A stretch of 47,938 bases of DNA from positions 1 to 47,938 of the forward strand of contig CAMDQN010000043.1 in assembly GCA_945905925.1 (NCBI GenBank), read 5' to 3'. The DNA is from Singulisphaera sp. GP187 (GTDB lineage Bacteria > Planctomycetota > Planctomycetia > Gemmatales > Gemmataceae). The notes below the pieces were generated by a model that was not told the origin of the DNA, searched no databases, and worked only from the letters and a program-made list of their open reading frames with translations. Both the position numbers and the translations under genes were made by a program. Shown here piece after piece: positions 27,795-33,343 of the stretch; position 1 is the first letter of the stretch; every line of letters starts with the position of its first letter.

Positions 27795-29102
27795 ATGCCT
27801 CCTCTCCACATTGCGACGTTCACGTGCGATGTCACGCCTCCCGAAGATCACCCGCTGTGCGGCGGGTGGATCACACCGGTTCGCGTCGTCGATGACCCGC
27901 TCCGGGCGCTCGGTGTCGTGCTGCTCGGGGTCGGCAAACCGGTCGTGCTGTGTGCGGTAGATTGGACCGGGCTTCGCAACGAAGCGTTTCGAATCTGGCG
28001 GAAGGCGCTCGCGGACGCCGCGCACACAACGCCGGAACACGTCTCGCTGCACTGCGTTCACCCTCACAACGCGCCGTTCGCGGACGTGGAAGCCGAGAAA
28101 CTCATCGCCGCGGCGAAAGCCGCGAAGTCGCTCGACCTGAAGTATTACGCCGAGTGCGTCAGGAAGAGCGAAGGCGCGCTGAAAGCCGGCGTGATGAAGG
28201 CGGTGAAGTTCACGCACATCGGCACCGGGTCGGCGGAAGTGAAGGAAGTCGCGTCGAACAGACGCGTCCTCGGCGACGACGGCAAGGTGAAGTTCACGCG
28301 TACGAGCGCGACCAAGAACAAGGAAGCACGCGACGCACCGGAGGGGCTGATCGACCCGCGCTTGCGCACGCTGAGCTTCTGGGACGACGACAAACCTCTT
28401 GCCGCGCTACAGTTCTACGCATGCCACCCGATGAGCTACTACGGCGATGGCCGCGTGAGCGCGGACTTCTGCGGGCTCGCGCGCCAGAAGTTTCAGGACG
28501 AGACGAAGGTCTTCCAGGTGTACTTCAACGGCTGCGGCGGAAACGTCACCGCGGGGAAGTACAACGACGGCTCGAAAGAGAACCGCCCGGTACTGCGCGA
28601 CCGCGTTCACGCGGCGATGGTTGCCGCATCCAAGGACACGAATCGCACCGAAGTGAAGGAATGGGACTGGCGCTTCGAGGCGGTCAAACTGCCGCCGCGC
28701 AAAGAAGCCTCGTTCGGTGAAGAGGAAAGCACGAAGGCGCTCAACGACGAGAAGGCCGCGGCTGCGAAGCGGAACAACGCGGCGTACCAACTCGCATGGC
28801 TCAAACGCAAGGACACACCGATCGAAGTGAACTGTCTCGACTTCGGCGGGAAGGTGCTGAACCTGTTCCTGCCGGGCGAGTCGTTCGTCGAGTATCAACT
28901 CGCGGCCCAGAAGATGCGCGAGGACGTGGTGGTGAACGTCGCGGCCTACGGCGACGACGGCCCCGGTTACATCCCCACCGCGAAAGCCTACCTCGAAGGC
29001 GGCTACGAGCCGACCGTCGCGCTTTCTGGCCCAGGCTCCGAAGACATCTTGCACGCCGCGATGCGGAAGTTGCTCAAAGCGGAAGGAAAGGGGAAGCCAT
29101 GA
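27795..29102 (+). CDS. Neutral/alkaline ceramidase-like protein
   Basis: 435-residue protein of the neutral/alkaline non-lysosomal ceramidase-like fold. It has no signal peptide. The segments GVVLLGVGKPVVLCAVDWTGL, LHCVHPHNAP (histidine pair matching the metal-binding HTH of the family), FYACHPMSYYGDGRVSADF and FLPGESFVEYQ match the family order. Characterised members hydrolyse ceramide, but many planctomycete relatives act on unknown substrates, and the HTHSGP motif is altered here to HPHNAP. Its TGA overlaps the ATG of the next gene, so the two are translationally coupled and likely work together. Confidence 0.8.
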   Translation: MPPLHIATFTCDVTPPEDHPLCGGWITPVRVVDDPLRALGVVLLGVGKPVVLCAVDWTGLRNEAFRIWRKALADAAHTTPEHVSLHCVHPHNAPFADVEAEKLIAAAKAAKSLDLKYYAECVRKSEGALKAGVMKAVKFTHIGTGSAEVKEVASNRRVLGDDGKVKFTRTSATKNKEARDAPEGLIDPRLRTLSFWDDDKPLAALQFYACHPMSYYGDGRVSADFCGLARQKFQDETKVFQVYFNGCGGNVTAGKYNDGSKENRPVLRDRVHAAMVAASKDTNRTEVKEWDWRFEAVKLPPRKEASFGEEESTKALNDEKAAAAKRNNAAYQLAWLKRKDTPIEVNCLDFGGKVLNLFLPGESFVEYQLAAQKMREDVVVNVAAYGDDGPGYIPTAKAYLEGGYEPTVALSGPGSEDILHAAMRKLLKAEGKGKP

Positions 29103-32100: not shown

Positions 32101-33343
32101 CGCGAAGGCACTCGCCGCGATTCTGGAGAAGGACGCAACCGACCCGTGGACCGTCACCGCGGCGCTCAGTTCCGCGAGCGCGTGCGGCTTCGAGTTGTTG
32201 GAAGCGCTGACCGCGAAGGGTAAGAACCCGAACGCGTCACTCGTCGCTCGGATCGCGGCAATGGTCGGGGCGAAGGGCGACGCGAAGCAAATCGCGCGCG
32301 TGCTGGAACTCGTCGCGGAAGGCCGCGCGCCCGGTGCGGACGCGGCGCTGCTCGACGGGTTGGGGCAGGGGATGCGCGCGTCTGCGAATCCGCTCCCGGC
32401 GTGGTGGGTGAAGCCGCCGGCCGCAGCCGCCGAGGTGCTGCCCAAGCTCCGCAAGCGGTTCGACACGGCCGCCGCGACCGTGCGCGACGAAAAGGCTTCC
32501 GCGACGGACCGCATCGTCGCGGCCGGGTTGCTCGCTTACGGACCGTTCGACGCGGTCGGCGCCGCGCTTGCGGAGACGCTCACTGCCACGACACCGGGCG
32601 ATGTGCAACTCGCCGCGGTGAAGTCGCTCTCCGCGCATGCCGATCCGAAGGTGAGCGAACTGTTGCTCAAGGGGTGGGTGGGTTACGGACCGGCGCTCCG
32701 GCGCGAGGCACTCGACGCAATGCTCGGACGCGCCGACCGCGCGCTGAAGTTGCTCGAACTGGTCGAAGCGAAGAAAGTCCCCGCGACCGACTTCGCGCTC
32801 GCGCAGGTTCAGCAACTCAAGGCCCACCCGAACGTGGGGGTGCGCACGAAGGCTGCGACGGTCTTCAAGTTAACGGCCGATGCCGACCGCGCGAAAGTCG
32901 TGAAGGAGTACGCGACCGTACTCGACCTGAAAGGCGACGCGATGAAGGGAAGGGCGGTGTTCAACAAGACGTGTTCCGCGTGTCACAAGCTCGATGGTGT
33001 GGGCTTCGACGTAGGCGCGAACCTGCTCGCTGCGCTGCCGAACAAGTCAGGCGAAGACCTGCTCGTCGCGGTGTTCGACCCGAACCGCGAGGTCGACCCT
33101 CGCTACGTGTCTTACAACGTCGTGACTGCCGACGAGCGCGTACTCAATGGCGTGGTCGTTGCCGAGACGCCGACGAGCCTCACGCTCCGCCGCGCCGACG
33201 GGAAGGAAGACGCGATTCTCCGGTCGAACATTTCGTCGCTGCGCTCGACGGCACTCTCGCTCATGCCGGTCGGACTGGAGAAGGAGTTGATGCCACAAGA
33301 TGTGGCGGACCTGTTCGCGTACCTGAGAACCGCAGGGAAGTGA
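29099..33343 (+). CDS. Ceramidase-propeller-cytochrome fusion protein
   Basis: 1414-residue exported protein with two families joined in one frame. A signal peptide ([16 protein letters not shown]) leads into a neutral ceramidase-like domain (about 25-455), with HTHSGP at 113-118, [18 protein letters not shown] and [13 protein letters not shown]. From about 460 it continues as a PVC-type beta-propeller ([60 protein letters not shown]), an alpha-helical HEAT-like region (about 860-1270) and a C-terminal cytochrome c domain with CSACH at 1292-1296. ATG 29099 overlaps the previous stop codon. The fusion suggests substrate hydrolysis followed by oxidation of a product, an inference only. A strong hairpin follows the stop. 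Confidence 0.92.
   Translation: [1414 protein letters not shown]

Follow-up and report, generated by a model that had tools for sequence, protein, structure and literature searches.

Do a ceramidase-like hydrolase and a heme protein that share one reading frame form a single enzyme? The question is raised by a gene at 29099-33343 (+) in a 47,938-nucleotide stretch of DNA from the planctomycete Singulisphaera sp. GP187 (contig CAMDQN010000043.1; hereafter the window), whose translation yields 1414 residues with no internal stop. A preliminary description made from the letters alone had read this gene as a ceramidase-like domain joined in frame to a propeller-cytochrome unit, with HTHSGP at residues 113-118, CSACH at residues 1292-1296 and a junction near residue 460; translation, the Pfam and NCBIfam matches and the Pfam domain borders bear out this layout. 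We find that the fusion is a recurring design across related bacteria and not a one-off. Tentatively, and stopping a little short of calling it probable, we favour an exported multidomain enzyme, derived from two adjacent genes that became fused, which would combine an amidase, presentation by propeller and HEAT parts, and heme electron transfer.

Domains of the fused protein

The Pfam family Ceramidase_alk (PF04734) matches residues 25-247 only (E 1.7e-13; 50.5 bits against a cut-off of 32.1), which corresponds to profile positions 1-230 of 509. It is followed by matches to DUF7133 (residues 461-862, E 2.3e-128), HEAT_2 (945-1015) and Cytochrom_C (1282-1411). NCBIfam recognizes a PVC-type heme-binding CxxCH protein at residues 473-862 and a putative heme-binding domain at 1279-1411, and both models (TIGR02604/TIGR02603) score over their cut-offs (305.2 against 122.2 and 114.5 against 68.15 bits). 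The order of propeller, HEAT and cytochrome parts is that of the PVC-type proteins; these begin at the propeller, whereas the fusion instead carries an N-terminal ceramidase-like domain. An open frame of 1515 amino acids, the longest here, starts at 28796. The ATG at 29099 is preferred: it overlaps the stop codon of the gene upstream (27795-29102) and is followed by what looks, by eye, like a signal peptide, a feature common to the aligned relatives.

An AlphaFold2 model of 870 residues (mean predicted local distance difference test score 80.6, predicted template modelling score [pTM] 0.62) superposes on the neutral ceramidase of P. aeruginosa (2zws) with Z 37.1 and a root-mean-square deviation of 3.3 over 392 residues at about 20% identity, and on the human enzyme (4wgk) with Z 34.2. 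The structural match spans residues 1-489 of the 646 in 2zws; the C-terminal domain that true neutral ceramidases have is absent, and the propeller comes next. In a profile alignment counted by hand, six residues (H113, H115, H222, E372, Y403 and Y415) fall on 2zws counterparts and R178 falls on human Arg257 (Table 1); the zinc ligands of 2zws we take to be among the positions aligned in this way. All 43 distinct unfused domains retain these seven catalytic positions, as do 55-56 of the 56 distinct fused ones, among which one row is truncated; 29 divergent ceramidase-like frames carry the same residues in most cases where the positions are covered, fragments such as L079 being exceptions. His196, Arg257, Tyr579 and Tyr591 are reported to be critical in human neutral ceramidase (PMC6952831). 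Because the seven residues are retained, the N-terminal domain is likely an exported, active zinc amidase. The fusion thus resembles neutral ceramidases in fold and in its aligned catalytic and zinc positions and differs from them in the missing C-terminal domain, apparently in a serine position (see below) and in the attached propeller-cytochrome protein.

The closest solved folds of the propeller are sugar dehydrogenases that use pyrroloquinoline quinone (PQQ) and AA12 enzymes (3a9g, 6i1q and 6jt5), with Z of 26-27 (26.8 for 3a9g, 26.7 for 6i1q) compared with about 22 for generic six-bladed propellers; the list of structural matches was filled by propellers, and the HEAT and cytochrome folds were barely probed by it. 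A cytochrome domain is also found in some AA12 enzymes. The HEAT arm is helical in a second model (pTM 0.73). Among 60 of the 135 matches of a family profile (A2) to solved sequences, cytochrome and helical-repeat proteins were found and no propeller sugar dehydrogenase, and no usable alignment came from comparing profiles with the GSDH-type paralogue L229. In the heme domain, CxxCH and a methionine are conserved in 13 of 13 aligned members, and the solved protein closest to it in sequence is 7zs0, a 'Hypothetical (Diheme) protein'. The CxxCH motif is a predicted site of covalent heme c attachment.

Conservation, spread and origin of the fusion

A single frame runs through the junction in 15 of the 18 other genomes of the genus that were sampled; two of these end at contig ends beyond the junction (G003, G015), and a third (G011) has a TAG further on, in the HEAT part. 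In G004 and G008, the propeller-cytochrome protein is unfused (71% identity), and G013 has only distant matches among those listed. The TAG of G011 (L026, 2464-2466) lies in frame in an otherwise intact fusion and may represent decay, a sequencing error or a split. One-contig assemblies are among the 15 (G001 and G007, with the same junction). Gemmata sp. IIL30 (L032) shows this junction too, and the fusion is likewise found in another genus of this family (G041, G074). The junction is common to several genera and to independent assemblies, and it is interrupted by neither a stop nor a frameshift in the fused orthologues checked.

In order to assess selection, the ratio of nonsynonymous to synonymous differences (pN/pS) was measured against six orthologues, giving 0.17-0.28 for the ceramidase part, 0.15-0.19 for the propeller, 0.13-0.22 for the cytochrome and 0.33-0.46 for the HEAT arm, with 0.12-0.52 in a 25-residue stretch around the junction. 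Both halves of the fusion are under purifying selection, and this conservation makes the fusion more than a chance event.

Across the class, ceramidase-like matches occur in 58 of 59 genomes (that of the window included), and a ceramidase-like domain followed by a propeller in one frame is found in at least 35 of the 59, as checked with phmmer. Outside the class, at least 2 of 113 genomes of the phylum (G097, G143) have a match that spans the two parts within a single open frame; the phylum sample held 119 genomes, of which six were the genome of the window and members of the class. All fused counts are lower bounds, the best 5 candidates per genome having been scored in the phylum sample and the best 14 in the genus sample. 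The preliminary description held that the two families are normally separate proteins; unfused copies are indeed common, but the statement is too strong for a class in which fusion is this frequent.

The fused proteins fall into several types. Family A is that of the 29099-33343 protein, and family B is about 33-40% identical to that protein and frequently extends further at the C-terminal end; two members there have matches resembling carbohydrate-binding modules that are below the Pfam cut-off; one of the two, L094, has a different N-terminal domain. In a third type, the ceramidase-like part and the propeller are separated by a LamG domain (L093, L095 and L096, the last with a ceramidase match of 27.7 bits, below the cut-off of 32.1). 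Three oddities were met among the matches. L163 holds a 2348-residue frame (4586-11629, -) with more than 800 residues before the ceramidase-like domain, and a HEAT-cytochrome match in G033 (C1:5078397-5079995, -) lies inside a 6267-residue open frame. L042 and L045 (record JAIXLE01) are titled Bacteroidales, yet their genes group inside planctomycete relatives and show the same gene order as the neighbourhood of 29099-33343, probably as a mislabelled bin.

The origin of the fusion was addressed with quick LG+G4 trees, from which near-identical rows were first removed, leaving 99 ceramidase domains and 85 propeller-cytochrome parts; several rows are of odd composition. The ceramidase set comprised domains scoring more than 150 bits with a second family profile (A3); it excludes both the LamG type and the divergent type of the upstream paralogue. 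In the propeller-cytochrome tree, family A is placed among unfused relatives, and a separate branch with good support carries family B; the ceramidase tree likewise draws the two apart. A single fusion origin was rejected on the propeller-cytochrome tree, where forcing family A and a core of family B into one clade costs 171 log-likelihood units (p-AU, from the approximately unbiased test, 1.2e-5), but not on the ceramidase tree; the groups were picked after the trees had been seen, which makes these p-values indicative. The core-B test is cleaner than an earlier constraint test on the propeller-cytochrome tree, which had likewise rejected a single origin but included family-B rows interleaved with other N-terminal-domain proteins. 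Two or more fusion events are likely, though not certain, from these trees.

Unfused arrangements are seen at the corresponding loci of some relatives. In G023 (L059) and G051 (L175), three separate genes encode a ceramidase-like paralogue, a ceramidase and a propeller-cytochrome protein, in that order, and the last begins with its own signal-like peptide, absent from the fusion. This looks like the state before fusion, fission being the alternative. At five loci without the ceramidase part (G004, G008, L039, L040 and L042), the unfused propeller-cytochrome gene keeps the same neighbours. Since G004 and G008 group with the fused G014 in the propeller-cytochrome tree, they look like secondary losses of the ceramidase part.

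The upstream paralogue at 27795-29102, in which no signal peptide was seen and HPH replaces HTH, lies, at most of the loci inspected, beside the fusion or the orthologous unfused gene; it is absent in L041/L060 and L042 and lies downstream of the fusion in L064 and L067. A second adjacency of the ceramidase-like and cytochrome families exists in the same genome, at L091 (1-3430 of contig C113), where a cytochrome-domain frame is directly followed by an unfused ceramidase-like frame. Elsewhere in the window, 25008-26513 (+) encodes a 501-residue protein with a glycosyl hydrolase 10 match below threshold, kept upstream in several relatives, and 16215-19319 (+) is a 1034-residue frame that ends in another cytochrome c domain (Pfam, residues 890-937).

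Table 1. Features of the fused gene and of the gene upstream, in window coordinates.
Feature	Position	Strand	Basis or remark
Signal-peptide-like N-terminus, residues 1-22	29099-29164	+	By eye; ATG overlaps upstream stop
Neutral-ceramidase-like catalytic domain (putative), about residues 23-447	29165-30439	+	Pfam; AlphaFold2 model against 2zws
HTHSGP, residues 113-118; H113/H115 align with 2zws H97/H99	29435-29452	+	
R178, aligned with human Arg257	29630-29632	+	
H222, aligned with 2zws H204	29762-29764	+	
E372, aligned with 2zws E411	30212-30214	+	
Y403, aligned with 2zws Y448 and human Tyr579	30305-30307	+	
Y415, aligned with 2zws Y460 and human Tyr591	30341-30343	+	
Junction, residues 448-460	30440-30478	+	Pfam borders; orthologues in same frame
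DUF7133 six-bladed propeller, residues 461-862	30479-31684	+	Pfam, NCBIfam, structure comparison
Helical HEAT-type arm, about residues 863-1277	31685-32929	+	HEAT_2 at 945-1015; helices in model
c-type cytochrome domain, residues 1279-1411	32933-33331	+	Pfam, NCBIfam
CSACH heme motif, residues 1292-1296	32972-32986	+	Invariant in 13/13 aligned members
Conserved Met1389, candidate second heme ligand (presumed axial)	33263-33265	+	13/13 aligned members
Upstream ceramidase-like paralogue, 435 amino acids, overlaps fusion start	27795-29102	+	Pfam 20 bits, below 32.1 cut-off

Other hydrolases on the same chassis

The ceramidase-like domain is one of several hydrolases joined to the propeller-HEAT-cytochrome chassis. 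A polysaccharide deacetylase-like domain occurs on it in L092, L094, L209, L210, L211 and L213, five of which also have FG-GAP repeats, L094 giving no FG-GAP match. A 3-keto-disaccharide hydrolase is N-terminal in L212 and C-terminal in L215, ThuA is N-terminal in L214 and C-terminal in L221 and L224, and an SGNH hydrolase is found in L216 and L218. The last two, both from the genome of the window (1303-6495 and 977-4810 of their loci, both -), combine SGNH, DUF7133, HEAT, a cupredoxin-type copper domain and cytochrome c in one frame. That genome (6.5 Mb) holds 23 DUF7133 stretches, 22 over the cut-off. Seven of its 15 scanned chains carry a hydrolase; this census comprises the 29099-33343 protein and 14 of 15 other scanned proteins, counting L229, which has GSDH and not DUF7133, and omitting L222, which has neither. 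Outside the census stand L223 and L230, L231, L232 and L233 as well as contigs C55, C62, C87 and C203.

A comparable pairing has been described for the Caulobacter LacABC lactose 3-dehydrogenase, in which periplasmic lactose oxidation is paired with a putative DUF1080 hydrolase (PMC9007349), and DUF1080 is likewise fused to sister chassis proteins. LacABC differs from the fusion in that it consists of separate proteins with another dehydrogenase and no ceramidase-like domain in what is described there. Carbohydrate-binding modules have in addition been noted in a second report on some planctomycete-specific cytochrome genes (PMC5615132). The hydrolases on sister chassis and these two reports hint at a carbohydrate-derived amide as the substrate rather than ceramide.

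Possible roles of the fused protein

The favoured reading of an exported multidomain enzyme would work as follows. The single signal peptide would export the whole chain; the zinc site of the N-terminal domain would strip the N-acyl group from an amide that is small or derived from a glycan and need not be ceramide; the propeller and the HEAT arm would hold or present the substrate or product; and the c-type heme would pass on electrons from oxidation of the product or from a partner dehydrogenase. Physical coupling of amide hydrolysis to redox chemistry, which the preliminary description had proposed, is possible and forms the weakest link of this mechanism.

Several observations weigh against this reading. 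The ceramidase part is missing at the same locus in G004, G008, L039, L040 and L042, which means that coupling can be dispensed with. One clade of families A and B is compatible with the ceramidase tree (p 0.08), and of the six deacetylase-like chassis proteins only L092 and L213 score over the Pfam cut-off for that domain. In the propeller, by sequence alignment only, Q and GG stand in the fusion at what we take to be the positions of the catalytic His and the PQQ-binding Arg-Asn of PQQ sugar dehydrogenases, so that the six-bladed propeller is shared with those and the AA12 enzymes while these residues appear not to be. The paralogues L219 and L227 of the same genome keep H and RN there. Since the unfused L228, L058 and L056 also deviate at one or both positions, the change cannot be ascribed to the fusion. 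The PQQ biosynthesis marker PqqE was over its cut-off in none of 21 genomes, a search without a positive control, as 14 control genomes also gave none; weak matches were present in all 21 and in all 14. Given these residues and the PqqE result, we leave the propeller without an assigned oxidation chemistry. Finally, at the position of the Ser274/Ser354 type, the fusion has A and most rows have A or Q (among 56 fused rows, A 31, Q 17, S 7 and T 1; column assigned by eye).

Co-export without coupling is a serious rival, if on balance an unlikely one: two independent periplasmic proteins with unrelated substrates would merely share a signal peptide and a fixed stoichiometry. It draws on the cytochrome half standing without the ceramidase half in such close relatives as G004, G008, L039 and L040, and on a linker of only about 13 residues between the profile-defined domains. 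It accounts less readily for the same two families being joined in at least two deep families and lying side by side, unfused and in both orders, elsewhere (L059, L175, L176, L091).

The variety of partners on the chassis admits a bolder reading, which we regard as rather doubtful. The fusion would belong to a modular periplasmic class of hydrolase-propeller-cytochrome proteins in Planctomycetota, with an exchangeable hydrolase (zinc amidase, deacetylase, 3-keto-disaccharide hydrolase, ThuA or SGNH) and a propeller that, independently of PQQ, performs or assists an oxidation whose electrons enter the fused heme, and its ceramidase-like version would couple N-acyl removal to oxidation of the freed amino compound.

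It is improbable that the ceramidase-like domain has ceased to be an enzyme and serves the propeller-cytochrome protein for binding or docking. The apparently replaced serine and a match that stops short of the C-terminal domain of genuine ceramidases would fit such a role, but every full-length row retains the zinc-ligand and catalytic positions, the ceramidase part has the low pN/pS of 0.17-0.28, and human Ser354 is reported only to stabilize and position Arg257 (PMC6952831).

That the domain is a true ceramidase acting on ceramides or other sphingolipids is highly improbable, although its fold and catalytic residues match neutral ceramidase. The similarity is remote (about 20% identity in the structural alignment) and does not extend to the C-terminal domain, a family-B query gives 2-29 matches per genome in the class, and the chassis partners are of carbohydrate type; nothing in the analysis supports ceramide as the substrate.

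The remaining thought of an assembly or reading-frame artefact, which two relatives with separate adjacent genes and the in-frame TAG of G011, located in the HEAT part, might invite, has a negligible chance and is contradicted by the same junction in one-contig G001 and G007 and in Gemmata sp. IIL30 and by purifying selection on both sides of that junction.

In the open full-text literature, which leaves most subscription papers outside, we found no paper that combines planctomycetes with neutral ceramidase or with ceramidase and cytochrome, Gemmata with ceramidase, or Pirellul- names with both cytochrome and ceramidase. Planctomycete-specific cytochrome genes in Verrucomicrobia, which may or may not belong to the DUF7133 family, are described as being of unknown function (PMC5615132). 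As far as we can tell, the function of DUF7133 proteins is likewise unknown. The intact and recognizable hydrolase site of the fusion offers a direct handle on them: the substrate of the amidase would reveal the molecule handled by the cytochrome half.

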